Assembly (NCBI GenBank): GCA_003565625.1
Contig: PXBD01000059.1
Location: 1-64,000, forward strand
DNA: 64,000 nucleotides
Reading direction: 5' to 3'
From: Gammaproteobacteria bacterium
GTDB taxonomy: Bacteria; Pseudomonadota; Gammaproteobacteria; Xanthomonadales; Wenzhouxiangellaceae
Position 1 is the first letter of the stretch; each line of letters begins with the position of its first letter. The translations under genes and the position numbers were made by a program. The notes under the pieces were generated by a model. That model was given only the letters and a program-made list of their open reading frames with translations. It ran no database searches and was not told where the DNA came from. This document shows, piece after piece, positions 1 through 46,390 of the stretch.

Positions 1-237
1 CCTAAAAACCAGCCTGCTCCCCATCAGTTGAGCCTGCGCTTCTGAACCGGGGATCATCTAGCAGGATCGCACCGTGTTGCGCCTCAGGGCATTGGTGTTA
101 AATCAAACTGACGCTGGTTGCGACATATGCCCTGCCACTTGGGCGGTGTCGTAACGAGAAAAAATCGAGTGGCTAAGCATGTAGAACCAGGATCAGAAGG
201 TTTGCGGACGCGGGTTCGACTCCCGCCGCCTCCACCA
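1..237 (+). ncRNA. ssrA: tmRNA (ssrA), 3' portion, truncated by window edge
   Basis: The segment ends in the tRNA-like 3' half of tmRNA: a T-arm GGTTCGACTCCCGCC inside GGACGCGGGTTCGACTCCCG, followed by the acceptor strand and an encoded CCA at 235-237. Upstream, CTAAGCATGTAGAACC at about 172-187 matches the conserved block before the last pseudoknot/helix of proteobacterial tmRNA. The 5' half, with the tag reading frame, lies left of the window. tmRNA works with SmpB to rescue stalled ribosomes and tag the nascent peptide. I am confident of the RNA type; the 5' boundary is simply the window edge. Confidence 0.93.
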
Positions 238-6100: not shown

Positions 6101-6958
6101 TCAGTTTCCTTGTTTTTCTTCCAGTTCAGCCAGGGCCTGCCAGACCTTGAGCGCATCGACCGTTTCGGCCACGTCATGCACGCGCACAATGGCGGCTCCG
6201 CGCTGGGCCGCAAGCAGGGCCGCAGCCACCGAGGCGGCCACGCGCTGGTCAGGAATCTGCCGGCCGGTAATGGCACCCAGCATGGACTTTCTGGAGACAC
6301 CCACCAGCAGCGGGTACCCCAGGCTATTGAGTTCGCGCAGGCGCTGCAACAAGGCCAGGTTGTGTGCCAGGGTTTTGCCGAAACCAAAACCCGGGTCGAG
6401 CACCAGGTTTTCGCGCGCCAGGCCGGCGGCAAGACAAGCCTGGACCCGGCGCTGAAAAAAACCCAGCACCTCGGCGACAACGTCGCTGTACTCGGGCTTG
6501 TTCTGCATGGTGCGCGGACGCCCCTGCATGTGCATCAGACAGACCGGCAACCGGCATTCCAGCGCAGCATCCAGCGCCCCGGGCACGGTCAGGGCGCAGA
6601 CGTCGTTGATCATATCGGCTCCGGCCGCCGCCGCCGCGCGCATCACGGCAGGCTTGGTCGTGTCGATCGAAATGGGCGCCTCGGTTTGAGCGCGCAGGCC
6701 GGTGATTACCGGCACCACCCGGGCCAGCTCCTCTTCCGCGCCAACCGGTTCCGACCCCGGCCGGGTGGATTCACCGCCGATATCCAGCATGTCGGCACCC
6801 TGCTGCAACAGCTCCAGGCCGTGTTCCACCGCCCGCTCGGGCCGATCGAAGCGGCCGCCGTCGGAAAAGGAATCCGGGGTGACGTTGACCACCCCCATGA
6901 CCAGTGGCCGTTCGCTGCGGTGAGCCGCACCGATGCGTTGTGCCAGCGTTTCAGACAT
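6101..6958 (-). CDS. folP: Dihydropteroate synthase
   Basis: FolP condenses p-aminobenzoate with hydroxymethyl-dihydropterin diphosphate in folate synthesis and is the sulfonamide target. The 285-residue protein has the classical blocks [41 protein letters not shown] and [10 protein letters not shown] chose the ATG at 6958 (MSETLAQ); the longer open frame reads back through the terminator upstream and is not coding. It precedes glmM by 2 bp. Confidence 0.97.
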
Positions 6959-7003
6959 GGGGTGTAGTGTACCCTCGGCGCCGTTCCATGGCGGGGCCGC
7001 TAA

Positions 7004-7036
7004 CGAAAACGCCGGCCTCGGGGGCCGGCGTTTTCG
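7004..7036 (-). terminator. Intrinsic terminator between ftsH and folP
   Basis: A perfect 14-bp inverted repeat (CGAAAACGCCGGCC / GGCCGGCGTTTTCG) with a 5-bp loop sits 20 bp past the ftsH stop and 46 bp before folP. The AAAA/TTTT ends of the stem give a short U-tract on either strand. It should end or attenuate ftsH transcription. Confidence 0.75.
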
Positions 7037-7055
7037 CTGGACTGGCAAGCTGGAC

Positions 7056-8975
<1,920 letters not shown>

Positions 8976-9012
8976 CGCTTATCTCCAATTCAGATACAAG
9001 AACATGGCCGAC

Positions 9013-9018
9013 ATTGTA
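9013..9018 (-). promoter_or_regulatory. Possible -10 of ftsH
   Basis: On the minus strand TACAAT (5 of 6 to consensus) lies 37 bp before the ftsH TTG start, giving a leader of about 30 nt. No convincing -35 and no sigma-32 type boxes are seen, so this is only a candidate. Confidence 0.3.
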
Positions 9019-9057
9019 CGCCAGAGCGAGCCTGGCGCCCTCTACCCGGTCGTCACG

Positions 9058-9660
9058 TCATCGCAGGCCGATGCCGACCAGGTAAACTTCCCGGCTTCCG
9101 GCGCGCGAGGCCTCGGGCTTGCGAACCTTGACGGTTCGGAAGGTTTGCCGAAACTCCGCGAGAAGGTCATCGAAGCCTGCGCCCTGGAACACTTTGACCA
9201 CGCATCGGCCCGAACGATCCAGCCAGTCGCGGGCGAACGCCAGGGCCAGCTCGGCCAGATGAACGCTGCGCGCCTGGTCCGACGGTCCGATCCCCGACAG
9301 GTTGGGTGCCATGTCCGACAAGACAAGGTCGACTCGCTCCCCGCCCAGGGCCTCCTCGAGGGCAGCAAGCACCTCGTCTTCACGAAAATCGCCCTGCAGA
9401 AAGGTCACTCCTTCCACAGGAGCCATCTCCAGCACGTCCAGAGCAATCACCCGACCGTGCCCGCCAACCGCCTCCCGGGCCACCTGCGACCAGCTGCCGG
9501 GCGCGGCCCCGAGGTCGACCACGCGCTGCACGCCGTCGAACAGGCGGTCGCGATCAGCCAGTTCGCGCAACTTGTAGGCGGCGCGCGCACGATAGCCGTC
9601 GGTTCGGGCCTGCTGCACGAACGGATCTTTCTGCTGGCGGTTTTTCCAGGCCCTGGACAC
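9058..9660 (-). CDS. rlmE: 23S rRNA (uridine2552-2'-O)-methyltransferase
   Basis: RlmE (FtsJ/RrmJ) methylates U2552 in the A-loop of 23S rRNA on the 50S particle. The 200-residue protein has the KDKE catalytic tetrad in its usual contexts: Lys in RAAYKLREL, Asp in LVLSDMAPNLSG, Lys in RCVVKVFQG and Glu in SREVYLVG. The SAM site is VVDLGAAPGSWSQVA. It sits 82 bp upstream of ftsH on the same strand and is divergent from yhbY, as in many gammaproteobacteria. Confidence 0.97.
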   Translation of the reverse strand: MSRAWKNRQQKDPFVQQARTDGYRARAAYKLRELADRDRLFDGVQRVVDLGAAPGSWSQVAREAVGGHGRVIALDVLEMAPVEGVTFLQGDFREDEVLAALEEALGGERVDLVLSDMAPNLSGIGPSDQARSVHLAELALAFARDWLDRSGRCVVKVFQGAGFDDLLAEFRQTFRTVKVRKPEASRAGSREVYLVGIGLR

Positions 9661-9728
9661 GCGGCACTCTGCCTTTCTCTTTCAGGCGAAAACGGTACAC
9701 TGTGGTTCACCTTATCACCGCCTGCACC

Positions 9729-10022
9729 ATGAGCCTGAGCAATTCCCAACGCAAATATCTCAGGGGCCTGACCCATGACCTCGCCCCTGTCGTCACCGTC
9801 GCCGACAAGGGGCTGACCGACAACGTACGCGCCGAGATCGTTCAAGCCCTCGACCATCACGAGCTGATCAAGGTCAAGCTGCGCGGTGATCGCGCCCAAC
9901 GCGATGACTGGAATGCCGAAATTGTCCGCCTGTCCGGTGCCGAAGCGGTTCACCAGATCGGCCAGGTCGCCTGCTACTATCTACGTCACCCGAAAAAGCC
10001 GCAGATCGTCCTGCCCACCTAG
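9729..10022 (+). CDS. yhbY: CRM-domain ribosome assembly protein YhbY
   Basis: This 97-residue protein is a single CRM RNA-binding domain: YLRGLTHDLAPVVTVADKG near the N-terminus and the KVKLRGD segment. YhbY binds pre-50S particles. I chose the ATG at 9729 (MSLSNSQRKYLRG) because the family begins there; upstream codons overlap the divergent rlmE start. The next gene starts 16 bp downstream. Confidence 0.95.
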   Translation: MSLSNSQRKYLRGLTHDLAPVVTVADKGLTDNVRAEIVQALDHHELIKVKLRGDRAQRDDWNAEIVRLSGAEAVHQIGQVACYYLRHPKKPQIVLPT

Positions 10023-10038
10023 ACTGCGACCGTAGACC

Positions 10039-10419
10039 ATGCTGAACCTGACCGAGCACAAGCCCGGCAATCACCACGCCATCCGTTCCGCCCGGCCAGA
10101 CCGCCTGGTCATCGACGACCGCGAGTTCACCAGCAGCCTGATCGTGGGCGCACGCTTGCTCAACCCCGATTGGCCCGTATGCGCGCTCAGCGACCTTGAC
10201 AAAGACACTGTCGCCGCCCTGCTCGACCCGCAGCCCGAAGTGGTTCTGCTCGGCGCCGGCGACCGGCCCCAGTTTCCCTCCGCCGCCATTCAGCAGCTGT
10301 TTCTGCGCCACGGCGTCGGCTTGGAGTGCATGACCCTGGTCGCTGCCGCGCGTACCTTCAACGTTCTGATGAGCGAGAACCGCCGCGCGTTGGCCGGGCT
10401 GATTCTGCCTGGCAGCTGA
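10039..10419 (+). CDS. Mth938-like domain protein (DUF498/NDUFAF3 family)
   Basis: The 126-residue protein has the Mth938 fold signature: a conserved SSLIVGARLLNPDW segment, the central PEVVLLGAGDRPQFP strand-turn and the C-terminal GVGLECMTLVAAARTFNVLMSENRR helix (quoted in parts). The human homologue NDUFAF3 is a complex I assembly factor; the bacterial role is not established. It lies between yhbY and an S9 peptidase gene, all on the plus strand with short gaps. Confidence 0.82.
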   Translation: MLNLTEHKPGNHHAIRSARPDRLVIDDREFTSSLIVGARLLNPDWPVCALSDLDKDTVAALLDPQPEVVLLGAGDRPQFPSAAIQQLFLRHGVGLECMTLVAAARTFNVLMSENRRALAGLILPGS

Positions 10420-10451
10420 AAATTCAACCTCTTGAACGGAAATTGCCCGCC

Positions 10452-12404
10452 ATGATCCCAACCCGCTCGAAACTTTTTCCCGTTGCGCTGACCGGGCTGG
10501 TGCTCGGCCTCTGGTGTACCGGCCCTGTGGCCGCCGATTCTGAGCCCGAGCGCGTCCAGCAAGGCAATCTGGTGATGGAAAACATCCCCGAGATTCCTGC
10601 CGAGGTGCGCCAGCGCCTGCGCCAGTACCAGAACGTTCGCTCGGCTTCGTTTTCGGACTTTGCCCCCGACGGCGGCATCTACATCCTCACGCGCTTCGGC
10701 GAGACCAACCAGATCCACCACGTGGCCCGGCCCATGGGCCAGCGGCGCCAGATCACTTTCTATGATGAGCGCACCAGCGGGGCCAGCGTACGGCCCGATG
10801 GCTCGGGTCAATTCATGTTCGCCCGCGACGTCGGCGGTGATGAGTTCTTCCAGGGCTTTCTGTTCGATCCGGCGACCGCGCGCAGCATCCAGTTCACCGA
10901 AAGCGGCACGCGCAACTTGAGTCCGAGCTGGTCGCCCGACGGCGCGAAGGTCGCCTGGGCTTCGACCACCTGGGAGGAACCGAACCACAAGATCTGGGTC
11001 GCCGACCCGGCCGACCCCGGCTCGCGCCGTCTGCTTGTGCAGGCCGAGGGCACGACGGTTCCTGCCGAGTGGTCCCCCGACGGTAGCCGACTGCTGCTGA
11101 CGCGCTACATTTCCATCAACGAGGCGCGCCTGTTCCTGCTTAAGCTCGACAGCGGCGAGATGGTGCAGATCAACCCGGATCAGCAGGTCGCCTATGGTGC
11201 GGCCCGCTTCTCGGCCGATGGCGACAAGCTGTTCGTGGTCACCGATGCCGGCGCCGAGTTCCGTCGCATCAAGACCATCGACCTGGACAGCGGCGCCATT
11301 GAACTGGTCAGCGAACATCCCTGGGACGTCCAGGCCATGGACCTGTCGCCCGACGGCCGCCTGCTGGCCTACACCATCAATGCCGGCGGCATCGCCGAGC
11401 TGCATTTCCTGAACCTGGAGACCGGCGAGCGGCCCGAAGCGCCGCAGTTGCCCACCGGGTTGATCGGTGGCTTGCGCTTCAGCCCGGACGGCGAGCGCCT
11501 GGCCTTCAGCCACAGCTACGCCGGCTCGCCGGGAGACGCCTGGGTGCTGGAACTGGACAGCGGCGAGCTGGTGCGCTGGACCGAGTCCGAGGTCGGCGGC
11601 CTGGATACTTCGCGCTTTCAGCCGCCCGAACTGATCCGCTTCGAGAGTTTCGACGGACTGGAAATACCAGCCTTCATCCATCGGCCGGACGGCGAGGGCC
11701 CGCACCCGGTGATCGTCTCCATCCACGGCGGCCCCGAGTCCCAGGCCCGACCGGGCTTCAGCTCCACCTTCATGTACTGGGTCCACGAACTCGGCGCTGC
11801 CGTTGCCGTACCCAACGTGCGCGGGTCCCGCGGCTACGGCAACGAGTTCGTAAATCTCGACAACGTGTTCCTGCGCGAGAACTCCGTGTTCGATATCGGC
11901 GCACTGCTCGACTGGATTGCCGAGCAGCCTGACCTCGACGAGGATCGGGTCGTGGTCTTTGGGGGATCCTACGGTGGCTACATGGTGCTGGCCAGCCTGG
12001 TGCATTACTCCGACCGCCTGGCCGGCGGGATCAACATCGTCGGCATTTCCAACTTCGTCACCTTCCTGGAAAACACCGCCGGCTACCGGCGCGACCTGCG
12101 CCGGGCCGAATACGGCGACGAGCGCGATCCGGAGGTGCGCGAGTTCCTGGAGTCCATTTCGCCGACGAACAACGCCGAGCGCATCACCGCCCCGCTGTTC
12201 ATCATCCAGGGCGCCAACGACCCGCGCGTGCCGGCCTCTGAAGCCGAGCAGATTCTGGAAGCCGTACGCAACGCCGGCGGCGATCCCTGGTACCTGCTCG
12301 CCCTCGACGAAGGCCACGGTTTCTCCCGCCAGTCCAACCGCGACTTCCAGCGCGAAGCCGAAACCCTGTTCCTCCGGGAGGTGCTCGCCCTGGGCGATGA
12401 CTGA
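10452..12404 (+). CDS. Secreted S9 family serine peptidase (prolyl oligopeptidase type)
   Basis: The 650-residue protein starts with a signal peptide (hydrophobic LFPVALTGLVLGLWC, likely cleaved near VAAD). TolB-like beta-propeller repeats follow (SPSWSPDGAKVAW, FSPDGERLAF), then a C-terminal alpha/beta hydrolase with the Ser in FGGSYGGYMV, Asp in QGANDPRVP and His in DEGHGFSRQ. Such enzymes cut short peptides in the periplasm. I chose the ATG at 10452 because the signal peptide begins there. The stop is 2 bp before the next start, suggesting co-transcription with aidB. Confidence 0.9.
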   Translation: MIPTRSKLFPVALTGLVLGLWCTGPVAADSEPERVQQGNLVMENIPEIPAEVRQRLRQYQNVRSASFSDFAPDGGIYILTRFGETNQIHHVARPMGQRRQITFYDERTSGASVRPDGSGQFMFARDVGGDEFFQGFLFDPATARSIQFTESGTRNLSPSWSPDGAKVAWASTTWEEPNHKIWVADPADPGSRRLLVQAEGTTVPAEWSPDGSRLLLTRYISINEARLFLLKLDSGEMVQINPDQQVAYGAARFSADGDKLFVVTDAGAEFRRIKTIDLDSGAIELVSEHPWDVQAMDLSPDGRLLAYTINAGGIAELHFLNLETGERPEAPQLPTGLIGGLRFSPDGERLAFSHSYAGSPGDAWVLELDSGELVRWTESEVGGLDTSRFQPPELIRFESFDGLEIPAFIHRPDGEGPHPVIVSIHGGPESQARPGFSSTFMYWVHELGAAVAVPNVRGSRGYGNEFVNLDNVFLRENSVFDIGALLDWIAEQPDLDEDRVVVFGGSYGGYMVLASLVHYSDRLAGGINIVGISNFVTFLENTAGYRRDLRRAEYGDERDPEVREFLESISPTNNAERITAPLFIIQGANDPRVPASEAEQILEAVRNAGGDPWYLLALDEGHGFSRQSNRDFQREAETLFLREVLALGDD

Positions 12405-34020: not shown

Positions 34021-34743
34021 TCAGGGTCCCCGACCGATCCATTCCTCAAATGGCCAGTCACTGCCCGCGCGCATGCGCTCCAGGGCTGCGCCCTCGCGTG
34101 TGCTGATCGTCTCCAGAAAATAGTCGGCCTGGCCCATTTCAGCAAACGCGTCCAGGCCGTCGCGGAGGAACTCCTGCAGCATCCCGAAGCCGGCCAGCAC
34201 CGCGGGCCCGTGCATCAGCCGGATCAGGCGGTGAACCAGCGGTTTTTGCACGGTCTCACCGAGCAGCTCGCCCACTTCGCGGATCAACACCAGCTGGCGC
34301 TCACGACCGGCCCAGTCACCCTGCTGTCGATACGCTCCGGCATAGTCCGGCTGGGTGATCGGGTCGACTTCGACCAGCAGGTCGGCCAGGGCCAGGTCAA
34401 ACTCCAGGCTGATCGCCTGCAGCTGCATTGCATCGCCTACCGCGGCCAGCAGGTGATCGGGCAGAAAGCGGCGCATTACCGGCGCGGCGCGCTTGAGCTG
34501 CTGATCGCGCTCGAAAATCTCGGGTCCACCGTAGAGCTCGCCGAGAAAAAACTCGCACGCCGGCAGATAGCGCGGCTGGTCACGCAGATCCTGGTAGGTG
34601 GCATCGAGCCGACGGCGCTGCCAATGCTGAAGCCGGGCCAGCGAGCGCGCCCGCGGCACGTCCAGCTCGGCGACGAACGCCCCGATGTTCTGGTTGTGCC
34701 GGATCTGCTCGTGCAGATGGAGATAGGCGGTTGAGTCGCTCAT
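34021..34743 (-). CDS. Conserved protein of unknown function, coupled to peroxiredoxin
   Basis: I do not recognise this 240-residue protein. It is soluble, with no signal or membrane helix, mostly alpha-helical by composition, and has a striking CEFFLGELYGGPEIFERD segment around residues 63-80 and KPLVHRLIRLMHGPAVLAG in the second half. Its ATG overlaps the stop of the peroxiredoxin gene by 4 bp, so both come from one message, which hints at a redox or stress role. That hint is inference only. Confidence 0.65.
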   Translation of the reverse strand: MSDSTAYLHLHEQIRHNQNIGAFVAELDVPRARSLARLQHWQRRRLDATYQDLRDQPRYLPACEFFLGELYGGPEIFERDQQLKRAAPVMRRFLPDHLLAAVGDAMQLQAISLEFDLALADLLVEVDPITQPDYAGAYRQQGDWAGRERQLVLIREVGELLGETVQKPLVHRLIRLMHGPAVLAGFGMLQEFLRDGLDAFAEMGQADYFLETISTREGAALERMRAGSDWPFEEWIGRGP

Positions 34744-36541: not shown

Positions 36542-38530
36542 CTACCAGTGAATGCCGCGCATCACCGAAGCGAACGCAACCTGCTCCTGGGTTGGCTGAT
36601 CGTGCTGATCAGACTCCACCCCACGAGCGGCCGAAGAGTCCGGGAACATGCGGAAAGCAGAATTCATGATGATCTCCGAACTCTTCGGCGCGACCGCGTG
36701 CAGCACCTGGGCAAAAATTCCGAGCCGGGTGGCAATCCGCTGCGGGCGGTAGATCACAGCCTGCTTGACCATGTCGGCGGCGTCTTCCGGGGTAATCGTC
36801 GGCACCGAATCGTACATCTTGGTGGGCGCGATCATGGGCGTGCGCACCAGCGGCATATTGATCGTGGTGAACGAAATCCTGGCGTCGTTGAATTCCGACG
36901 CGGCGCAGCGCGCGAACGCGTCCAGAGCCGCCTTGGAGGCCACGTAGGCCGAAAACCTGGGCGCGTTGGACAGCACGCCGATCGAGGAGATGTTGATGAC
37001 CTGACCCTTGCGCTGTTGTTCCATGACCGGCAGGAAACCCATGGTGAGCTTGAGCGCGCCAAAGTAGTTGAGCTGCATGCAGCGCTCGTAGTCATGAAAG
37101 CGGTCGTAGGACAGTGAGATCGAGCGGCGGATGGAACGGCCGGCATTGTTGACCAGAATGTCGACATGACCGTGGTCGCTCAGCACCTGCTGGATCAGAC
37201 GCTCGGCGTCCTCGAGATCGGCCAGGTCGCAGGTGTAGGCGAACGCCTGGCCGCCAACGGCCTCGATTTCGGCCTTGGTCTCGAGCAACTGCTCTTCGCC
37301 GCGGGCAACGATCACGGTTTTCGCGCCGGCCTCAGCCATCATCAAGGCGGTCGCCTTGCCGATACCCGATGATGCACCGGTAATGACGACCACCTTGTCA
37401 CGCACCTTGCCCGAAAGAGAACGATCGATGAAAAGCTCCGGATCGAGGTGGCGCTCCCAGTAGTCCCAGAGTACCCAGGCATAGGTGTCCAGCGACGGTA
37501 CGCTGATACCCGAGCCTTTGAGCGCGCGGTCGGCCTCGCGCGTATCGAAATGCGTCGGATAGTTGAAAAACGACAGCATGTCCTTGGGGATACCGAGGTC
37601 CTTGAGCACCTGGTTGATGATGCGTCGCACCGGCGGCAGCATGCCCAGACCCTGCTTGACCGGAGCCGGGATGAGCGAAAACAGGCGCGCATCCAGGCGC
37701 ATGGACATCAGCGGCGCATGGGCCGCCTCGGCGAACAGGTTCATGATCTCGCCAATGCGCTTCGGGTTCGGATCGGTAAGATGGAAACATTGGTTGTCCA
37801 GCTTCGGCTTGTGGGCAATGTGATCCATGGCCCGGGCGACAAAGTCCACCGGCACGAGGTTGACGCGCCCGCCCTCCAGGCCCAGCGTCGGCACCCAGGG
37901 CGGCAGCATGCGGCGCATCTTCTGGATGAGCTTGAAAAAGTAGTAGGGTCCGTCGATCTTGTCGATCTCGCCGGTTTCGGAATGGCCCACCACGATGCCC
38001 GGCCGATAGACCCGCCACGGGATACTGCAGTGCTTGCGCACCAGCCCTTCGGAATCATGCTTGGTGCGAAAGTAGGGATGGTCCAGGCCGGTCGCTTCCT
38101 CGAACATGTCTTCGCGGAACGTGCCGCGATAGAGTCCGGCGACCGCAATCGAAGAGGTGTGATGGAAACAGCGGGCCTTCAGCGCCTCGGCGCACTGGAT
38201 GGCGTGCTGCGTGCCGTCGATGTTGGCCGCCTGGTTGGCCTCGGCGGTGGCCTGCAGGTCATACATCGCGGCCAGATGAAAGAAATGACGGATCTTTCCG
38301 GTCAGCGCCTCGCGGTCGGCCGCGCTCAGGCCCAGCGCCGGCTTGGTCAAGTCCCCGCTCACAGCCACCACCCGCTTGCGGTGGTCGGGCCAGCGTTCGT
38401 CTACCAGGCGGTTGAATTTCTTCTTCGATCCGCGCCGCACGAGCACGTGCACGGTGCCCTTGCGCGCCAGCAACTGATCAATCAGGTTGCGGCCGATGAA
38501 GCCGGTTCCCCCGGTGACGAAATAGGTCAT
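36542..38530 (-). CDS. Two-domain fatty acyl-CoA reductase (alcohol-forming type)
   Basis: The 662-residue protein fuses two SDR domains. The N-terminal extended SDR has YFVTGGTGFIGRNL and the catalytic pair Y153xxxK157 (YFRTK). The C-terminal classical SDR, from about residue 385, has VVVITGASSGIGKATA, ILVNNAG and SAYVASKAALDAF. Length and order match Marinobacter-type FAR (Maqu_2507-like), which reduces acyl-CoA or acyl-ACP via aldehyde to fatty alcohol with NADPH. An ACBP gene is divergent and a wax ester synthase gene lies 3 kb away, which supports a wax-ester role. An oxidoreductase with another substrate remains possible. Confidence 0.82.
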   Translation of the reverse strand: MTYFVTGGTGFIGRNLIDQLLARKGTVHVLVRRGSKKKFNRLVDERWPDHRKRVVAVSGDLTKPALGLSAADREALTGKIRHFFHLAAMYDLQATAEANQAANIDGTQHAIQCAEALKARCFHHTSSIAVAGLYRGTFREDMFEEATGLDHPYFRTKHDSEGLVRKHCSIPWRVYRPGIVVGHSETGEIDKIDGPYYFFKLIQKMRRMLPPWVPTLGLEGGRVNLVPVDFVARAMDHIAHKPKLDNQCFHLTDPNPKRIGEIMNLFAEAAHAPLMSMRLDARLFSLIPAPVKQGLGMLPPVRRIINQVLKDLGIPKDMLSFFNYPTHFDTREADRALKGSGISVPSLDTYAWVLWDYWERHLDPELFIDRSLSGKVRDKVVVITGASSGIGKATALMMAEAGAKTVIVARGEEQLLETKAEIEAVGGQAFAYTCDLADLEDAERLIQQVLSDHGHVDILVNNAGRSIRRSISLSYDRFHDYERCMQLNYFGALKLTMGFLPVMEQQRKGQVINISSIGVLSNAPRFSAYVASKAALDAFARCAASEFNDARISFTTINMPLVRTPMIAPTKMYDSVPTITPEDAADMVKQAVIYRPQRIATRLGIFAQVLHAVAPKSSEIIMNSAFRMFPDSSAARGVESDQHDQPTQEQVAFASVMRGIHW

Positions 38531-38716
38531 GCTCTCTCTCCCTGACAGTCGATGTTTTTACGAATTGCGTTTCCAGAGTCTGTAAGATACCGCGCCGCTC
38601 GCGCTTGCGCCAGTTTCGGTGACCGACGAGGCCGCGGATGCCCGGTCTGATTGACCGCAACCCGCGCTCATGCTAGAAAGGTTCATACCACCGCCATGGA
38701 ACCTGGAAGCCGCACG

Positions 38717-38974
38717 ATGACCGAACTCGACAAGCGTTTCGAACAGGCGCAGGCCGACGCCAAGCAACTGCCCCAACGGCCCGACAACGACATGATGCTC
38801 AAGCTCTACAGCTATTTCAAGCAGGGGACGGAGGGCGACGTCAGCGGCGAAAAACCGGGCTTTTTTGATTTCGTCGGCGTTGCCAAATACGAGGCCTGGG
38901 AAAAACGCAAGGGCATGCCGGCCGAAGAGGCCAAGCAGAAGTACATCGAGCTGGTCGACTCGCTCGAGGGCTGA
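38717..38974 (+). CDS. Acyl-CoA-binding protein
   Basis: The 85-residue protein is a stand-alone ACBP domain: MTELDKRFEQAQADAKQLP, the Tyr-Lys ligand region LYSYFKQGTEGDVSG, and KPGFFDFVGVAKYEAWEKRKG. ACBP binds long-chain acyl-CoA and donates it to acyltransferases. It is common in eukaryotes and sporadic in bacteria. I chose the ATG at 38717 because GGAAG lies 7 nt upstream and the family starts there. It is 32 bp before the TetR gene on the same strand. Confidence 0.92.
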   Translation: MTELDKRFEQAQADAKQLPQRPDNDMMLKLYSYFKQGTEGDVSGEKPGFFDFVGVAKYEAWEKRKGMPAEEAKQKYIELVDSLEG

Positions 38975-39006
38975 GTCACGCAGTCGAGGCCCACCATTTC
39001 CGGCAG

Positions 39007-39624
39007 ATGGCCCGCAACACCCGACAACGCATCCTCGAGACCGCTCTGGCGTTGTTCAACGCCGAGGGCGAACCCAACGTCACCACCAACAGGGTGGCCG
39101 ATGAACTCGAGATCAGTCCCGGCAACCTGCACTACCACTTCCGCACCAAAGCCGACCTGATCGAAGCGCTGTTTGACGATTTCGAGCACCGGATGCTGCA
39201 GATCCTGTCTGCACCCGAGGAGCGGCCGGCCGACATCGAGGATATCTGGTTTCTACTCCATGTTGCCTTTGAAACCATCGGCGAATATCGCTTCATTTAC
39301 CGTGACCTGACTGACCTGTGTGGCCGCTACCGAGGCCTCCATCAGCGTTTTCGCGGCATTTTGCGCCTGACCATGGAAGCGGCACGTTCGCTGTGCGAAG
39401 ACCTGATCGCGGCCGAGCGCATGGATGCCTCGCCGAGCGAACTCGATGCCGTGATTCGCAACATTGCCCTGGTCAGCACATTCTGGCTGGCGTTCGACCA
39501 GGTACATGATGCCGACGGCGTCCGCCCCGACCGCGCCGCCTGGCAGGTGATGAGCCTGATCAGCCCGTATCTGGTAGGCGAAGCACGCACCCTCCTGCAG
39601 GCGTTGGCCGACGCCTACGCCTAG
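39007..39624 (+). CDS. TetR/AcrR family transcriptional regulator
   Basis: The 205-residue protein has an N-terminal TetR helix-turn-helix (RQRILETALALFNAEGE, NRVADELEISPGNLHYHFRTK) and a C-terminal ligand domain. The segment NLHYHFRTKADLIEALF is canonical. It follows the ACBP gene by 32 bp, so an acyl-CoA or fatty-acid ligand and control of the adjacent lipid genes are reasonable guesses. I could not identify its operator. Confidence 0.9.
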   Translation: MARNTRQRILETALALFNAEGEPNVTTNRVADELEISPGNLHYHFRTKADLIEALFDDFEHRMLQILSAPEERPADIEDIWFLLHVAFETIGEYRFIYRDLTDLCGRYRGLHQRFRGILRLTMEAARSLCEDLIAAERMDASPSELDAVIRNIALVSTFWLAFDQVHDADGVRPDRAAWQVMSLISPYLVGEARTLLQALADAYA

Positions 39625-39631
39625 TAAGACA

Positions 39632-39757
39632 CTAGATCGAACCCATCAGAACCCAGGTGATATAGCTCACCATTGCGGACAAACCGAGTATGGCCAGAGC
39701 AGCCAGGAGGATACTCCGGCGGTTGTGTCGTTGCTTTGTAGCCATATTTTCGGTCAT
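39632..39757 (-). CDS. 41-residue single-helix membrane microprotein
   Basis: The short frame starts with ATG at 39757 and ends with TAG at 39632-39634. It has a basic N-terminus (MATKQRHNRRS after four residues) and then one hydrophobic helix (ILLAALAILGLSAMVSYITW). A strong AGGAG lies 7 nt before the ATG, and this site directly follows the U-tract of the phasin terminator. The good ribosome-binding site, uninterrupted frame and clear topology argue for a real gene; no homologue can be named. It is convergent with the TetR gene, 7 bp apart. Confidence 0.6.
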   Translation of the reverse strand: MTENMATKQRHNRRSILLAALAILGLSAMVSYITWVLMGSI

Positions 39758-39771
39758 CCGGATTCTCCTGT

Positions 39772-39800
39772 AAAAAAAAGCCCGGGCGTGCGCCCGGGCC
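39772..39800 (-). terminator. Intrinsic terminator of the phasin gene
   Basis: On the minus strand GCCCGGGCG-CA-CGCCCGGGC is followed by eight T, a strong Rho-independent terminator 56 bp past the phasin stop. Its T-run runs directly into the ribosome-binding site of the 41-residue microprotein, so that gene would be expressed only by readthrough or an internal start. Confidence 0.88.
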
Positions 39801-39855
39801 AACAGCAGCAGTCTTGATCGGGCCGAGGGAAGCCCGGACTGCTTCGGGGTAGTCG

Positions 39856-40452
39856 TCAGGCCGGATCCGACTTCGGCGCCGGCGTTTCATCAGGCTTGGC
39901 GGCAACTTTCTTGGCCACCTTTTTGCTTGCCGCCGGCTTCGGAGCCTGCTGCTTGCGGGCCAGTTCGGTCACACGCTTGTTGAGTTCGGCGACGCGGTCG
40001 CTCAACTCGCGAATTTCCTCGGAGGTCGGAACGCCGAGGCGGCTCAGGGCGCGGGCGACGCGCTGCTCGAAGACCTTTTCCAGCTTGTCCCAGTTGGTCT
40101 GGGCACTCTTGCGTACTTCGTCCATACGGTTTTCCACATCACCACGGACACCGCCAACGGCGTCGGTCGCCATCTTGCGGCCCTTGTTTTCCAGCTTCGA
40201 GCCTTCCTTGACCAGGCGCTCGAACAACTTGGCCGACTCGCCGACCATCTTGCTGGTGGTATCGTCGATGCGCTTGCTGCTCTGCTTGAACAACTTGCTG
40301 CCTTCGTCCTGGGCCATGGCAAAGGCACCGAGCCCGGCCAGCCAGATTTCGTGGGCGTAATCCTGTGCCTGGTTCGCGACATTCTTGCTCGCTGCAGACT
40401 TGCGGGTCACCTTCTTCTTGGCAACCTTTTTCTTTGCGGTTTTCTTCGCCAC
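39856..40452 (-). CDS. Phasin family protein with Lys/Ala-rich ends (PhaF/PhaI-like)
   Basis: The 198-residue protein has the phasin core AHEIWLAGLGAFAMAQDEGSKLFK, ERLVKEGSKLENKGRKMA, then long amphipathic helices with LSRLGVPTSEEIRELSDRVAELN. Both ends are rich in Lys and Ala (AKKTAKKKVAKKK; AASKKVAKKVAAKPD), like histone-H1-type tails of PhaF, which binds PHA granules and DNA. Start is GTG with AGGAG 9 nt upstream. No PHA synthase is in the window, so it may coat wax-ester or triacylglycerol granules instead. Confidence 0.88.
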   Translation of the reverse strand: MAKKTAKKKVAKKKVTRKSAASKNVANQAQDYAHEIWLAGLGAFAMAQDEGSKLFKQSSKRIDDTTSKMVGESAKLFERLVKEGSKLENKGRKMATDAVGGVRGDVENRMDEVRKSAQTNWDKLEKVFEQRVARALSRLGVPTSEEIRELSDRVAELNKRVTELARKQQAPKPAASKKVAKKVAAKPDETPAPKSDPA

Positions 40453-40548
40453 TGTCTTGATCTCCTGTATCTGTTGTGCTGAAACGCTGCCCTATCCGGC
40501 AGCCATGGAGCTAAGATACGAGAGAGTTCTAGAGCAGTCACACTAAAA

Positions 40549-41385
40549 ATGAAAACTTCTGCGTGGGCAAGATTTCCGCACTCCAATACAACCTATGAAT
40601 ATCCGGCCGACGCCCTGGCCGATGCCTGGGAGCATCTGCACCGCGGCGATCGGGAGCCGTTTCCGGACGCAGAGCGTATCCATGCGCTGGATCCAGACTG
40701 CACCGATCCGAACCAGGTGGCCGAACGCCTGCAACAGGCCTGGCGCGATTACCACGCCGGTCGCTTAGCCGCCGCCGTGGAAGCGGCCCTGGAGTTGGGG
40801 CCGATCGCCCACGCCGTCGCCAACAAGGCCAGCGGGATCTATGCCGACTACCTGGAAGAGGAAGACGCGGCCAGGCTGGCCATCTACCAGGCCGGCATCC
40901 AGCGCGCCGAACAGGCCATCGCAGCCTTCCCGGAAGACCCCAACGCGCACTACTTTCATGCTTTTTTGCTGGGCCGCTACAGCCAGTGCATCTCGGTTGC
41001 CAAGGCACTCGCCCAGGGCGTGGGCGGCAAGATCCGCCAGTCCCTGGACCGGGCACTGGAACTCGAGCCCGGGCATGCTGAAGCGCACACCGCCCTCGGG
41101 GTCTATCACGCCGAGATCATCGACAAGGTCGGCAAGATGGTGGGACGCATGACCTATGGCGCAAGCGCCGACAAGGCAGAAGAAGAATGCAGGCGCGCCC
41201 TGGAACTGACCCCGGAGGCACCGATTGCCCACCTCGAGTACGGCAACGCGCTCTACTTGCTCTACGGCGATCGACGCCTCGATGAGTCCAACAAAGCCTA
41301 CGCCACCGCGGCCAAACTGAAGCCGGCAGACGCGATGCAGAAACTCGACGTTGAATACGCCCGCAGTTACGCCGCCGGGGACTGA
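40549..41385 (+). CDS. TPR-repeat protein of unknown function
   Basis: The 278-residue soluble protein has an atypical N-terminus (YEYPADALADAWEHLHRGD) and at least three TPR-like helical pairs, e.g. AERLQQAWRDYHAGRLAAAVE, SLDRALELEPGHAEAHTALGVY and ECRRALELTPEAPIAHLEYGNALYLL (quoted in parts). No enzyme motif is visible. It lies divergent to the phasin gene and ends 3 bp before the stop of the convergent wax ester synthase gene. A scaffold role in lipid-granule metabolism is a guess from position only. No clear Shine-Dalgarno is seen. Confidence 0.7.
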   Translation: MKTSAWARFPHSNTTYEYPADALADAWEHLHRGDREPFPDAERIHALDPDCTDPNQVAERLQQAWRDYHAGRLAAAVEAALELGPIAHAVANKASGIYADYLEEEDAARLAIYQAGIQRAEQAIAAFPEDPNAHYFHAFLLGRYSQCISVAKALAQGVGGKIRQSLDRALELEPGHAEAHTALGVYHAEIIDKVGKMVGRMTYGASADKAEEECRRALELTPEAPIAHLEYGNALYLLYGDRRLDESNKAYATAAKLKPADAMQKLDVEYARSYAAGD

Positions 41386-41388
41386 ACC

Positions 41389-42864
41389 TCAGTCGATCGA
41401 GGCCTCGATCCAGTCGTGTACCAGCGCGAAGGTTTCGGGCGTTACCGGCGAGTCCTGTGGCCCGATCAGCAGGGTCAGATGCAGCAGATCGTTGAACTCG
41501 TCGACAAAATGGTCGATCACCCGCTGCGGATCGGGTACCAGCTTGTTGTCGGTGATCAACCCGCAAAACACCTGGCCCTGGTAGCTGATGATGCTGATTC
41601 CCATGCCGATGGAGCCGGTCTGCGGCACCCAGAACATCATTTCCCGGATCGGAGCCCCGGCCAAGTAGAGGGTTTGCTGAGGACCTGGAACGTTGGTCAG
41701 GACCGTACTGGCCTTGCGGCTGAACAGCTCAAGAGCAGGTTTTTGCAGGGCGGCCGGGCCCATACCCAGCACGGCCAACAGGCCCAGTGACATCACCGCC
41801 TGCTTGGATTTTTTCAGCCGCTGCATGAACTCCGCCACCTGGTAAAGCCGCGCCAGCGGATTGGTCTCGCTGATCGGCAGATCAAGAAACACCAGGCCAA
41901 AGTGATTGCCCAGATCGCGGGCATGTTCGAGCGGCCGGAGGTTGACCGGCACGGTGGCTCGCATGGTCAGGCTGCCGGGCTCATCACCTGCCTCGACCAG
42001 GTAGCGGTGCAGCGCTCCGGTCATGGTTGCAATCAGCACATCGTTGACCGTGGCCCCCAGCGCATGGCCAACCGCCTTGACCTCTTCCAGATCCAGCGGC
42101 GGCGCCCAGGACACGCGTTTTCGCACCCCCAGCGCGCCCTTGAAACGCGATGGCGGATCGTCATCGAGCAGCAGCGCGGTGGCCAGCTCGGACACGATTT
42201 CGCCGGCACCAAACAAGTAGTCTGTGGCCTTGTGCGGCTCGCGCAGCAGTTCTGTTGCCTCATCGACCACTTTCTGGCTGACGTTCTGGATCAGGCCTGC
42301 ACTCTCGCGCGCCGGTGCCGTGAGCCGCTGGAAGATGCTGGATTCGGCCGCACGGCGTTGCTTCCAGGCCTCCTGCTCGACCAGCCGGTTCGAGGCCTGC
42401 GCCGACGGTTCGGTCAGCGACAACATGACCTGGACCAGAGCGATGCCATCGGCGTAGCAGTGATGGATGCGGCTGATGGCGACGGGCCCGCCGCTGTAGT
42501 TTTCGACGAAATGGAACTGCCACAGGGGTTTGGTCTTGTCGAGCGGCGTCGAGGCCAGTTCCGAGACCAGCTCCTCGAGTTCCGCCTTGCCGGCTTGCCC
42601 GGGCAGCGCAGTGCGCCGGATATGGCTGCTGATCTCGAACTGCTCGTCTTCCTCCCACCAGCAACCGCGCGGATGATCGACGGCTCGCTGACGAAAGCGC
42701 GGAAAGGCAAGGAAACGGTTGGCGACAATCCGCCGGAAGTGCTCGAACTCGACCGCTTCGGCCAGTTCAATCACCCCGGTGATCATCATCAGGTTGGTTG
42801 GCTGCTCCATGCGCAGCCAGGCCGTGTCGACCTTGGCAATCGGTTCCCTGCGCGAAGTGCTCAA
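41389..42864 (-). CDS. Wax ester synthase / diacylglycerol acyltransferase (WS/DGAT)
   Basis: The protein (491 residues from the chosen start) has the catalytic H134H135xxxD139G in SRIHHCYADGIALVQ, the PLW block KTKPLWQFHFVE, the ND motif ATVNDVLIATMTGAL and the NVPGP block VLTNVPGPQQTLYLAG, all typical of bacterial WS/DGAT. It joins acyl-CoA to a fatty alcohol or diacylglycerol. I prefer a TTG start at 42864 (then STSRREPIAKVDTAWLRME) because AGGGAG precedes it and family members start there; a longer form from an ATG at 42930 is possible. It belongs with FAR, ACBP and phasin nearby. Confidence 0.9.
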   Translation of the reverse strand: MSTSRREPIAKVDTAWLRMEQPTNLMMITGVIELAEAVEFEHFRRIVANRFLAFPRFRQRAVDHPRGCWWEEDEQFEISSHIRRTALPGQAGKAELEELVSELASTPLDKTKPLWQFHFVENYSGGPVAISRIHHCYADGIALVQVMLSLTEPSAQASNRLVEQEAWKQRRAAESSIFQRLTAPARESAGLIQNVSQKVVDEATELLREPHKATDYLFGAGEIVSELATALLLDDDPPSRFKGALGVRKRVSWAPPLDLEEVKAVGHALGATVNDVLIATMTGALHRYLVEAGDEPGSLTMRATVPVNLRPLEHARDLGNHFGLVFLDLPISETNPLARLYQVAEFMQRLKKSKQAVMSLGLLAVLGMGPAALQKPALELFSRKASTVLTNVPGPQQTLYLAGAPIREMMFWVPQTGSIGMGISIISYQGQVFCGLITDNKLVPDPQRVIDHFVDEFNDLLHLTLLIGPQDSPVTPETFALVHDWIEASID

Positions 42865-42939
42865 GGCGTTCTCCCTGCTGGCAGTTGTCGGTACCGGGCA
42901 GATTCTTTCACGCCCCCGGCGTGGGGTCAATTGATGACA

Positions 42940-43392
42940 TCAATGCAGCTGGCGACCGTCGGTCGCGCTTTCCTGCGGTTTGACCAGGTCGTAGGGCAAC
43001 TTGACCTGGTCGAGACCAAATTGCTTGAACACCGGCTGCAGCTGATGGTGGATCAACGGATAGAGCTGGCGGGTCAGGCTGGCGTGGGAACTCGAGAAGG
43101 CCTCGAAGCTCACCGGCTCGCCTTGGAACTGGCGGTACACGGTCTGCATGACCAGCTCGATCTCGAACAACGCTTCCTCGGGGTCATCGGCGGCCCGGCT
43201 GCCGCGGCAGATCAAGCGGGCCGTGACCTGGTACTGGTTGACACCCTGGTCCGGCTGCAGCTCGCGCGGCGTGAGTTTGAGCTCCACCTTGGCCCGATAC
43301 GACTGGTCAGCCGGCACGATCTCTTTCAGATCGGCGTTCAGGCGAGTGAGCTGGGTATGCGCCAGGGCGAATCGGTCGAGCAGATCCAGCAT
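42940..43392 (-). CDS. Conserved protein of unknown function, SecB-like fold possible
   Basis: The ~150-residue protein is not one I can name. It has alternating strands (YRAKVELKLTP, YQVTARLICRG, ALFEIELVMQTVYRQF) and a C-terminal helix then KLPYDL, a pattern like the export chaperone SecB, but the SecB consensus is absent. I chose the ATG at 43392 since GGAG lies 8 nt upstream; an ATG at 43446 would add 18 poorly coding residues. It lies 75 bp upstream of WS/DGAT on the same strand, so co-transcription is possible. Confidence 0.6.
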   Translation of the reverse strand: MLDLLDRFALAHTQLTRLNADLKEIVPADQSYRAKVELKLTPRELQPDQGVNQYQVTARLICRGSRAADDPEEALFEIELVMQTVYRQFQGEPVSFEAFSSSHASLTRQLYPLIHHQLQPVFKQFGLDQVKLPYDLVKPQESATDGRQLH

Positions 43393-43453
43393 GGGTCGGT
43401 CTCCGGTCTCGGGTCCATCAGGATATCGCGGCCACCAGGCCTGCACTGCAAAG

Positions 43454-43525: not shown

Positions 43526-46390
43526 TCAGCGCGGCTGGAAGGTGGTCACCCGGGCTGCGTCCTGCCCCGCCTGCTCTTCACCAATAGCCAGCGGCAGGTA
43601 GTCGTTGACCAGCCACAAGCGCAACTGATTGGTATAGAACGGGCTCAGGAACACACCGCTGCGACCGCCGGGGATGATCTCCTCGGCTGCAGGGCCTTCG
43701 GGCGTGACCACGGCGACGTTGCGCCGGGCTGCGCCGGCACTGAAGGTGAATGCATTTTCAGAGCGCGCGCGCGAACTGTGGCTGGAGGCGTCAACGACTT
43801 GGAAGCCACCGGCTCGCGCCACACCGGGCAGCGCCTCGTCGACGTCGGCAAAACCACCGGCTCCGGGCACATTGAACGGCGCGGTATTAAGCGGGTGATC
43901 AAATACAATCCGATGCAGACGTCCCCAGCGATAGTCGTTCTGGTCCTCGGAAAAGCCGAAGGCATTGGCGAACGGCTCACCGGCCAGACGATCCAGCGCA
44001 CCCTGCAACGACGCCAGCAAGACCGTGTCGCGGGCGTCAGCCGGCTCGAGATCCGGCGCATCCGGAACATTGAAATACGTCAGCCCGGAGGCAGCCTGAC
44101 CCTGGGTCAGCGGGAACAGGCGCAGCTGGTTGACCAACGAACGCCAGGCCAGCTTGCTGCCCGGCAGCTGGTCTCCCAGACCGACCGCGCGCAACGTGGC
44201 ATCAATCGTGTTGGTGATGACTTCACCGCGCCAGACGCTGTAAATGGTGGCCGCGATGCTGTGCGCGATCTGCTCATCACTGGGCACGCTGTTGCCGGTC
44301 GGGTCACCGCCAGGATCAAAACCACCCGCCAGTCCGGTCGGGGTGGAGAAGTCCCAGTTGGCCAGGCGACCCATGGCCTCCTGGACCCGTTCATCGGCGG
44401 CAATTGCCGCCAGCGGCAGGGCGGCGTCCTCGGCGGTCGCGTTCTCGAAAGCCTGGAGCAGGAACGGCAGCAGCAGCTCGGCGTCGAGCAGGCGATTGTT
44501 GGCCTGGACCGCCTTCATGTCATCGATGGTGACGTTGCCGCGCGCGACCAGGCCCTGCAATTCGCGATCCACTCGCCCCATGCGCAGGTCGGAGTAATTG
44601 GTGTTGAGGTAGTAGATACCGTCACCGCCCGGACGCAGCTGACTCAAGGGATTGCCGTCGAGACTGGTACCGACCGGATCGTTGTTGGCGTTGGCAATAT
44701 AACCCCATGGTGGATTGACCACCTGCGGCATTTCATCGCGCGGAATCAGCGCATACGGTGTCGCCTGACCCGGCTGCGGGTCGGGATCGATCAACCACTC
44801 GTGATTCAGTGCCCCGCTGCCGTCGCGGATGAACCAGGGCGGACGGCCGCCATCGGCGGTCAGCTCATTCTGGAGGTCGGCGCGCAGCGGCATCTCTCCG
44901 CCGATGAAGTAGGCGATATTGCCTTCGATATCGGCGTACAGAAAGTTCTGCGAACCAAACGCGAAGTCACGCAGGCCGGCCTCGAAATCAGCCTGGCTGC
45001 GGGCACGGGCCCAGGAGCGGAACGCGGACAACTCGAAGGTCGGGCCCCAGCCGGTGTACTGAACGGTCAGCGCGCTGTCGTCCAAGAGCTGCAGGATCGG
45101 CCCGTTATTGCGGCGCGGAACGATAAAGGTGATTCCACCGGCATCGAAACCGACGTTCAGCCGGCCGACGTCATCCAATGTGCCGTTGCCCGGGGTGTTG
45201 GCAAAGTACGACTGGAAGACATACAGGATGCGCTCGGGCACGCCCTTGTGGATGGTGTGGGTCGGCAAACCGAAATTGTTGACCAGGATCGGATCCTGGA
45301 AGACATCGGTGACGTCGAGACGGTTGACGGTTGAACCCCAGCACAGGAAGGGCGTACAGGCCTGAGCGGCGACCGGTGCCCCGGGGAAAACGACCCCGCT
45401 GACGGCCACCTCTTCATCACGGATGACCAGGTTTTCGCTCATGAAGATGGGCGGCATGGTCAGGCCCAGGTGGGGGTCGTTGGCAAACAGCGGGTAGCCG
45501 GAAGCGGTGTGCTCTCCGGATACCGCCCACCAGTTGCTGCCCAGGTCCATGTTCTCGCCGAGGAACGGCAGATCCTGAACACGCTCCAGGTACAGACGTC
45601 CCAGTTCGACCAGACCATCATCCAGGCGCGGCACGGTATAGCCCGGCGCCGACGAACCGTCGACCTGCTGCAGCCCGGCGGCCGGATCGGCCTTGCCTTC
45701 GCCCTGCCCCGACTCCGGCACCATGATGCCAATCCGGTCGAAGAAATCGGGTATCGAGACCCGGCCGTCGACCGGAATGGTCGGGTTGAGGTCCTGCAGA
45801 AACAGTGCCGTACCGTCAAAACCGACGATCTCACCAACTGCCTGGTAGGTGCCGATGCGCACCGTGTTGCCAATCGCCGACAGGCTCTGGTCAAACGACA
45901 ACTGGAAGGCCAGCAGCTTGCCGATGGCCAGCGAGTCCACCGGCGACCACGGCTCGGCTGCGCTCAATTCCAGGCCGCCGTACTCCGGCGGCAGCTCATT
46001 GGTCGCCAGCCAGTGGTTGACGCCGTCGGCATACGCCTTGACCCAGGCTGCCTCTTCGGCATCGAGACCGGCGAAAGTGGCCCAGGCCGCCCGGCGCAGT
46101 CCGAGCGTGCGCAGCTGGACATCGTTGTCCAGCGCCGGGGCACCGACCAGTTCGGCCAGGGTGCCCGAAGCCACTCGACGCAGAAAATCCATCTGGAAAA
46201 AACGGTCCTGGGCGTGCAGATAGCCCTGGACGAAAGTGACATCGGCTTCGGTCTCGCCGACGATGGTCGGAATGCCGTTGGCGTCGGTAAAAACGTTCAC
46301 GTCCGCCTGAATGCGCGGTGCGTCCAACGTCTGCGCCGATGCCAGTGACGCCGCCAGCATGCCAGCGGCGAATAAGGAAAGTCGCCTCAT
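43526..46390 (-). CDS. Secreted penicillin-acylase family (S45/Ntn) hydrolase
   Basis: The 954-residue preproenzyme has a signal peptide (LFAAGMLAASLASA), an alpha-chain region with VQGYLHAQDRFFQMDFLRR, and the autocleavage/nucleophile site at Ser285 in DLGSNWWAVSGEHTASG. Later blocks FANDPHLGLTMPP and VTDVFQDP continue the beta chain. Processing should give an alpha/beta heterodimer in the periplasm. The family includes penicillin acylases and acyl-homoserine-lactone acylases such as PvdQ; which amide is cut cannot be read from sequence. It is divergent from pdhA. Confidence 0.9.
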   Translation of the reverse strand: MRRLSLFAAGMLAASLASAQTLDAPRIQADVNVFTDANGIPTIVGETEADVTFVQGYLHAQDRFFQMDFLRRVASGTLAELVGAPALDNDVQLRTLGLRRAAWATFAGLDAEEAAWVKAYADGVNHWLATNELPPEYGGLELSAAEPWSPVDSLAIGKLLAFQLSFDQSLSAIGNTVRIGTYQAVGEIVGFDGTALFLQDLNPTIPVDGRVSIPDFFDRIGIMVPESGQGEGKADPAAGLQQVDGSSAPGYTVPRLDDGLVELGRLYLERVQDLPFLGENMDLGSNWWAVSGEHTASGYPLFANDPHLGLTMPPIFMSENLVIRDEEVAVSGVVFPGAPVAAQACTPFLCWGSTVNRLDVTDVFQDPILVNNFGLPTHTIHKGVPERILYVFQSYFANTPGNGTLDDVGRLNVGFDAGGITFIVPRRNNGPILQLLDDSALTVQYTGWGPTFELSAFRSWARARSQADFEAGLRDFAFGSQNFLYADIEGNIAYFIGGEMPLRADLQNELTADGGRPPWFIRDGSGALNHEWLIDPDPQPGQATPYALIPRDEMPQVVNPPWGYIANANNDPVGTSLDGNPLSQLRPGGDGIYYLNTNYSDLRMGRVDRELQGLVARGNVTIDDMKAVQANNRLLDAELLLPFLLQAFENATAEDAALPLAAIAADERVQEAMGRLANWDFSTPTGLAGGFDPGGDPTGNSVPSDEQIAHSIAATIYSVWRGEVITNTIDATLRAVGLGDQLPGSKLAWRSLVNQLRLFPLTQGQAASGLTYFNVPDAPDLEPADARDTVLLASLQGALDRLAGEPFANAFGFSEDQNDYRWGRLHRIVFDHPLNTAPFNVPGAGGFADVDEALPGVARAGGFQVVDASSHSSRARSENAFTFSAGAARRNVAVVTPEGPAAEEIIPGGRSGVFLSPFYTNQLRLWLVNDYLPLAIGEEQAGQDAARVTTFQPR

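Follow-up and report, generated by a model that had tools for sequence, protein, structure and literature searches.

Within the 64,000-nucleotide stretch of DNA analyzed here (the window), the genes at 36542-42864 and their immediate neighbors probably form a module for wax-ester synthesis and granule storage with a dedicated phasin. The genes encode a fatty acyl-CoA reductase (FAR), a stand-alone acyl-CoA-binding protein (ACBP), a TetR-family regulator, a phasin, a tetratricopeptide repeat (TPR) protein and a wax ester synthase/diacylglycerol acyltransferase (WS/DGAT). The clustering of WS/DGAT with ACBP and FAR has already been published (PMC10351704); new here is a 17-bp site that precedes nearly every one of these phasins and is rare elsewhere. 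The source genome (2.8 Mb in 95 contigs, 89.5% complete) is Wenzhouxiangella-like, and the named FAR loci closest to that of the window carry the labels Wenzhouxiangella, Wenzhouxiangellaceae or just Gammaproteobacteria.

Co-occurrence and neighborhood of the genes

Open reading frames and profile matches established all six genes as real, with the families that had been assigned to them. The FAR (36542-38530, minus strand) is a two-domain protein (short-chain dehydrogenase/reductase, SDR, plus SDR) of the NF005539/PRK07201 type, matching NF005539 end to end (residues 1-662) with 996 bits against a cut-off of 549. Both SDR domains have the catalytic Tyr-Lys pair (YxxxK, at residue 153 and at residue 529), and the two motifs were unchanged in 116/116 rows (106 distinct proteins). 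The ACBP of 85 aa (38717-38974, plus strand) is a full-length PF00887 domain (100.7 bits, cut-off 28.3; 5e-29 for the listed reading frame). Its ATG lies 66 bases inside the reading frame listed from 38651, the position at which a -35-like box begins. The WS/DGAT (41389-42930, minus strand) exceeded the TIGR02946 cut-off of 310 with 413 bits, its relatives in the PDB being 7nxg and 6chj. Its HHxxxDG motif, reported earlier as intact, was indeed so (HHCYADG), and it was present in 37 of 41 rows, the other four being fragment rows of 1 or 11 residues. Adjoining the FAR, just beyond the span of the earlier note, a patatin-like lipase (PF01734; 35237-36493, plus strand) retained GxSxG in 64/64 rows (60 distinct), and is a probable module member and candidate granule lipase.

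The FAR belongs to the same two-domain size class as MAQU_2507 of Marinobacter, FCR1 of Mycobacterium and FcrA of Rhodococcus. Acyl-CoA reductases of this type are described as suppliers of fatty alcohol for wax ester, the Mycobacterium enzyme among them (PMC3522743, PMC8401914), and overexpression of a two-domain FAR in Rhodococcus increased wax ester (PMC8401914).

Co-occurrence was determined in 61 genomes of relatives including the source genome, 45 of them at least 90% complete and 16 below; four of the FAR matches were partial. FAR, ACBP, a TetR ortholog, a PF05597 phasin and WS/DGAT were found together in 43/61 genomes. At 90% completeness or above, 32 genomes carried FAR, ACBP, phasin and WS/DGAT, and 13 had neither FAR nor WS/DGAT; five of these 13 kept the phasin only, one (G023) ACBP only and seven none. 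When counted by hand at the level of genera, FAR was present in 18/25, and all 18 also had ACBP, phasin and WS/DGAT. For FAR genomes traced from the 80 loci described below, WS/DGAT was detected in 35/35, in 33 cases outside the locus itself; three of the traced genomes (L044, L045, L047) are also in the set of 61.

Synteny was evaluated by comparing 13 window genes with 80 FAR loci of a species collection. Flanks of 8 kb or more on either side are available for only 51 of these loci, and contig ends therefore account for some missing neighbors; at least 10 loci are also contained in the 61 genomes of relatives, so the two sets of counts overlap. ACBP was found within 2 kb of FAR in 69 loci and TetR within 3 kb in 72; within 8 kb, phasin was found in 56, patatin in 46, TPR in 43 and WS/DGAT in 13. 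In the 51 long loci, the respective values were 43, 46, 40, 32, 32 and 8. The control genes of the window were rarely near FAR (TypA 2/80, PDH-alpha 5/80 within 10 kb, Bcp 9/80), so the linkage is specific. In the 44 FAR genomes of the relatives set, ACBP and TetR were within 1.5 kb of each other in 44/44, and FAR and ACBP within 3 kb in 41/44. Within 10 kb, ACBP and phasin were found together in 34 genomes, phasin and WS/DGAT in 29, and FAR and WS/DGAT in 23, some of the misses being due to broken contigs. FAR, ACBP and TetR thus form a tight core, with phasin, TPR and patatin often near, and WS/DGAT is the loosest member, usually located elsewhere in the genome.

It is highly improbable that the genes are neighbors by coincidence, as part of a chromosome region that evolves slowly among close relatives. 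In favor of such an account, the order of the block is largely common to one genus. Nevertheless, the control genes do not follow FAR as ACBP and TetR do, which largely excludes it; the same genes were also regrouped in different orders in other families, and most of the block was lost together in G023. In this small genome (L154), ACBP lies directly beside a homolog of the gene at 42940-43446, and WS/DGAT, TPR, phasin, TetR and FAR are gone from the stretch. FAR, WS/DGAT, phasin and TetR were not detected elsewhere in this genome either, the TPR gene having been sought in the stretch alone. The functional link that the earlier note had drawn from proximity is therefore well supported, as judged from co-occurrence, synteny and this single case in which most of the block was lost. 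Its expectation of conserved co-localization held within the genus, where the genes are not scattered except in single cases such as G027 (one contig), in which phasin, TPR and WS/DGAT lie 0.3 Mb away from FAR, ACBP and TetR; outside the family, WS/DGAT is mostly elsewhere.

WS/DGAT enzymes are promiscuous and can yield triacylglycerol instead of wax. A rather unlikely alternative to wax ester is that mostly triacylglycerol, or some other lipid containing fatty alcohol, is produced, with WS/DGAT acting as a DGAT and FAR feeding another use of the alcohol. This would fit the position of WS/DGAT, which was near FAR in only 13/80 of the wider loci and in 5/18 genera of the relatives set, as well as three less complete genomes (G001, G011, G013) with WS/DGAT and no FAR. 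On the other hand, among the genomes at least 90% complete every one with FAR has WS/DGAT and no FAR-less one does (32 versus 13), the 35/35 traced genomes agree, and none of the ten proteins analyzed at and around the gene cluster belongs to the Kennedy pathway.

The points of the preceding paragraph that favor triacylglycerol also weigh against a wax-ester module, and several others have to be added to them. One genus accounts for 30/61 genomes (25/44 of those with FAR), so the rows are not independent and the Fisher values for co-occurrence have to be read with caution; 16 genomes are below 90% completeness. Another less complete genome, G003, has FAR and ACBP without WS/DGAT or phasin. In Rhodococcus, wax ester stayed at the wild-type level when the homologous fcrA was deleted (PMC8401914).

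Some FAR genomes (G046, G051, G055) have WS/DGATs solely of another, higher-scoring type, so reference is made here to a WS/DGAT rather than to an ortholog. The source genome itself has a second WS/DGAT, which differs in type and scores higher (L153, G000:C71, 7803-9218), adjoining a GGDEF/GAF/PAS protein.

Neighborhoods of ws/dgat genes in coastal sediment metagenomes have been described by Galvan et al. (2023, PMC10351704), where ACBP adjoins ws/dgat. As in the present locus, an SDR resembling FAR and related to MAQU_2507 is reported nearby, and a putative phasin occurs in one betaproteobacterial scaffold. The main text of that paper makes no mention of TetR or patatin, both of which are present in our locus, and no phasin-promoter site, test for the presence of PHA (polyhydroxyalkanoate) synthase or family-wide count of co-occurrence was found in its accessible parts.

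Several further genes were noted around the block. A 168-aa protein (42940-43446, minus strand), just upstream of WS/DGAT on the same strand, gave zero Pfam or NCBIfam matches; its homolog lies on the WS/DGAT side within the genus and was found in 5/80 wider loci, and its membership in the module is uncertain. A penicillin-amidase family protein (43526-46390, minus strand) is also upstream of WS/DGAT on the same strand, and it accompanies the 168-aa protein on that side in most same-genus stretches. A 240-aa protein (34021-34743, minus strand) without a Pfam match was within 8 kb of FAR in 40/80 loci and is a possible further module member. At the beginning of the window, a tmRNA (1-237, plus strand) is truncated by the window start.

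The phasin and the PHA system

The phasin (39856-40452, minus strand) carries lysine-rich N- and C-terminal tails and exceeded the cut-offs of both PF05597 (138 bits, cut-off 28.8) and TIGR01837 (112 bits, cut-off 94.7). The earlier statement that no PHA synthase lies nearby was correct for the genes examined around the cluster, but not for the genome, since PhaC is encoded on contig C44. The PHA locus found there (L152, G000:C44:16000-32000, 6765-11379) comprises PhaC, an SDR, PhaR (PF07879), a Phasin_2 protein (PF09361) and a further SDR. Two storage systems, this PHA locus and the putative one of the FAR/WS locus, lie side by side in the source genome.

It is quite unlikely that the phasin of the window serves PHA granules and owes its neighborhood to history, with FAR, ACBP and WS/DGAT belonging to a separate lipid pathway. 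Such a role would agree with the PHA granule function of PhaF/PhaI-type phasins in Pseudomonas (PMC9049629), with the presence of PhaC in the source genome, and with that of class III PhaC in all five FAR-less genomes retaining a PF05597 phasin above the cut-off. Against it, in 12 relatives with FAR, WS/DGAT and phasin (G002, G006, G010, G018, G024, G026, G027, G031-G034 and G036; Wenzhouxiangellaceae-level, at least 90% complete), zero matches to class I PhaC, class III PhaC or PhaR were obtained. The PF05597 phasin thus persists without a detected polyester synthase, although in four of these relatives (G027, G031, G033, and G032 at 5 kb) it is not directly in the FAR block. Moreover, the PHA locus of the source genome has its own Phasin_2 and PhaR, 34/44 FAR genomes have a phasin no more than 10 kb from ACBP, and the promoter site described below tracks FAR and TetR rather than PhaC. 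Membership of the phasin in a PhaR-controlled PHA system was not borne out, as PhaC and PhaR do not accompany it in the 12 relatives and lie on another contig in the source genome. The phasin of the window is therefore probably not a PHA phasin. Its proposed role as a wax-ester granule coat gained support from the 12 relatives and from the separate PHA locus with Phasin_2.

Two known systems offer parallels. In Pseudomonas, PhaF/PhaI are phasins with a histone-like DNA-binding tail, to which the window phasin bears a likeness, and PhaD is a TetR-like regulator acting at the phasin promoter, a likeness proposed for the TetR of the window (PMC9049629). The phasin genes of Pseudomonas, however, sit with phaC and phaZ, whereas those considered here sit with FAR, ACBP and WS/DGAT and persist in relatives without PhaC. 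In Rhodococcus jostii, MLDS is described as a droplet coat with a lysine-rich DNA-binding tail, which parallels the window phasin by description; its promoter contains a short palindrome under a dedicated regulator, MLDSR, which parallels the phasin site (PMC5504291). The MLDS box, GNT(T/A)GCTNNTGCTANC, differs from the sequence found here, and MLDSR is encoded in the MLDS operon, unlike the arrangement in the window (PMC5504291).

A 17-bp site at the phasin promoter

Between the phasin and TPR genes, an imperfect dyad with CTAG at its left end was found at 40529-40545 (plus strand; CTAGAGCAGTCACACTA). The consensus of this site is 17 bp long, CTAGAG-N4-CACACTA. A putative -10 box of the phasin, TATCTT, is located at 40513-40518 (minus strand), with a similar spacing to the site in most rows of the genus. 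The strict pattern TAGAGYRRNCACACTA gave 19 matches in 37 genomes, of which 18 were directly upstream of a phasin, the remaining one being at G007:C228. By genome, it was present in 18/27 FAR-bearing and 0/10 FAR-less genomes, and the reversed pattern gave two matches.

Among 103 phasin rows of the loci (one of 104, the second L080 row, was dropped, and the loci are partly duplicated), the site was found with 0, 1, 2 and 3 mismatches in 37, 23, 23 and 16 rows, respectively, 99 in total. In this count, the phasins of all 12 relatives without a PhaC match had the site with at most one mismatch. Random stretches from the same loci, some of which overlap the site itself, had a mean best value of about five mismatches. 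Two rows with six mismatches, L047 and L171 from the same genome, resulted from a misplaced start, and an exact loose site lies upstream of that phasin. With a matrix threshold of more than 10 bits, 83/86 distinct phasin upstream regions were recovered, as well as 30/67 TPR regions, which score because the TPR gene is divergent from the phasin gene.

These mismatch and matrix counts are partly circular, since the pattern was defined on the same phasin upstream regions. A fairer test was provided by outlying phasins of FAR genomes, which were new to the analysis except for one met in the strict-pattern search; all of them (10/10) had TAGARYNNNCACACYA with at most one mismatch. In contrast, the site was found in 0/5 phasins of the FAR-less genomes (at least four mismatches), and the regions of PhaE/class III PhaC genes also gave 0/5, two stretches having a two-mismatch match elsewhere. 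No site with two or fewer mismatches was detected in the PHA locus of the source genome. Judged by its distribution in sequence, the site follows FAR, TetR and WS/DGAT and not PHA synthesis.

Other results count against the site as a general mark of the module, in addition to the circularity. The strict pattern was missing from 9/27 FAR-bearing genomes, the phasins of L072 and L112 had no good site, and L080, with three mismatches, had none at one or fewer. Upstream regions of the other genes did not exceed 10 bits for TetR (0/98), ACBP (0/103) or patatin (0/60). A single WS/DGAT region of 35 did so (12.8 bits), as did one shuffled control, and the values for the 34021 gene (1/53) and FAR (3/106) came from four regions that are all beside a phasin. 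The distribution of matches therefore does not show the whole module to be one regulon. Finally, the exact 17-bp pattern occurred in one of 369 genomes sampled across the class, which was the source genome; this sample was searched with the exact pattern alone and contains the FAR genome G047, in which the site at the phasin deviates from that pattern. The site is therefore very specific, and its spread beyond the group rests on few loci, such as the Burkholderiales-labeled L063.

PhaR was considered as the reader of the site and rejected, because no PhaR match was obtained in the 12 near-complete site-bearing genomes, and PhaR is present in five genomes (G037, G048, G049, G057, G058) whose phasins lack the site. 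In addition, exact matches to the PhaR/PhbF binding patterns of PMC3206438, TG[N]TGC[N]3GCAA or CTGC[N]3GCAG, were found in only 1/86 distinct phasin upstream regions, which was not that of the window. A conserved hairpin in the phasin 5' leader was also rejected as too weak: the window leader has a 6-bp stem at 40486-40503, with similar short stems in many same-genus leaders, and stems of at least 6 bp were found in 16/70 leaders and not kept further out.

The leading candidate for reading the phasin site is the neighboring TetR-family protein (39007-39624, plus strand; PF13972, PF00440). Its ortholog (more than 150 bits) was present in 44/44 FAR genomes and in 0/17 others. The structure model has the standard TetR fold and gave no indication of its ligand, and the nearest solved relatives are 3nnr (Maqu_3571, Marinobacter aquaeolei VT8) and 3rh2 (Sama_0099, Shewanella). 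Regulation of the route by TetR is thus only a correlation across the 61 genomes, and no operator for it was identified at the regulator's own promoter.

The putative divergent promoter region of FAR and ACBP-TetR (38531-38716) was recognized by conservation in an alignment of 23 regions from the genus or close to it. It contains conserved promoter-like boxes TTGACC-N17-TGCTAGAAA from 38651 (plus strand), which may serve ACBP, and a conserved -10-like box TATCTT at 38584-38589 (minus strand), which may serve FAR. Alignment of these 23 intergenic regions and of 20 others, mostly from Lysobacteraceae, revealed promoter-like boxes alone and no clear operator. In four Marinicella loci (L090, L092, L105, L107), an inverted repeat TTGAC...GTCAA, seen by eye over the ACBP promoter, is a possible TetR operator; a few metagenome-assembled genomes likewise have a longer inverted repeat at this place.

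The TPR protein and the proposed storage pathway

The TPR protein (40549-41385, plus strand) was modeled from 36 homologs with a mean pLDDT of 97.4. Since the Foldseek list contained many OGT and designed TPR chains, ranking by Z was used instead. The best matches were the TPAT family transporter 8g52 (20.5), BstC 7t1s (19.0) and PTPIP51 7cc7 (18.4), followed by the TPR protein 2pl2 (18.2) and TatT 3u64 (18.1) and 4di3 (18.0), with the next entry at 16.2. The predicted fold resembles those of the sterol carrier BstC, TatT (Tp0956) and the TPR domain of PTPIP51/RMDN3, with the TPR protein 2pl2 scoring in the same range. By sequence, the protein remained below both curated cut-offs, with 22 bits for BstC NF045602 (cut-off 350) and 21.1 bits for the RMDN/PTPIP51 family PF21033 (RMD1-3; cut-off 26.7), and its profile matched 7cc7 weakly (E 6e-4). 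PTPIP51 transfers lipid. BstC has a hydrophobic cavity and binds sterol (PMC10942540). No export signal is visible in the sequence, so the protein is taken to be cytoplasmic, and the predicted fold is consistent with a cytoplasmic lipid carrier.

Gene content, conservation, co-occurrence, the site and the predicted TPR fold were observed directly. In the pathway that we infer from them, which extends to the enzyme products, the granule location, lipid binding and the factor reading the site, ACBP would hold long-chain acyl-CoA and hand it on, and FAR would convert part of it to fatty alcohol. WS/DGAT would then join the alcohol with acyl-CoA to wax ester, and triacylglycerol may also form. Inclusions in the cytoplasm would take up the wax ester, with the PF05597 phasin as their coat; the lysine-rich tails of this phasin may anchor them to DNA, a property reported for PhaF and MLDS. 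Binding or movement of a lipid is the probable role of the TPR protein, and the patatin-like lipase probably mobilizes the stored ester. The level of phasin would be set through CTAGAG-N4-CACACTA, recognized by a factor that accompanies the module, with TetR as the foremost candidate. PHA granules would constitute a separate system, with PhaC, PhaR and Phasin_2 encoded on another contig.

A more elaborate version of the storage module is possible and is proposed tentatively. In it, a PHA-type phasin would have been re-used as the coat of a wax-ester inclusion and placed under its own operator, CTAGAG-N4-CACACTA, independently of PhaR. A module-borne factor, probably TetR sensing acyl-CoA or the granule, would act at this operator, and a cytoplasmic TPR protein of the BstC/PTPIP51 fold would carry lipid. 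PHA and wax-ester granules would then coexist in cells such as this one, and each type would have a phasin and a regulator to itself. Among the open-access literature matches listed, none described a phasin that coats wax ester and has a promoter site of its own; this covers no subscription papers.

If the storage module is as proposed, phasins would not be tied to polyester granules, and an environmental lineage would use one of them for oil-type storage with its own switch. The phasin-promoter site would serve as a marker of wax-ester storage in genomes and metagenomes, the TPR protein would be a candidate for the handling of lipid at bacterial lipid droplets, and the locus would offer a compact gene set for wax-ester production. 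The coat and the control of wax-ester granules in Gram-negative bacteria would thereby become directly testable.

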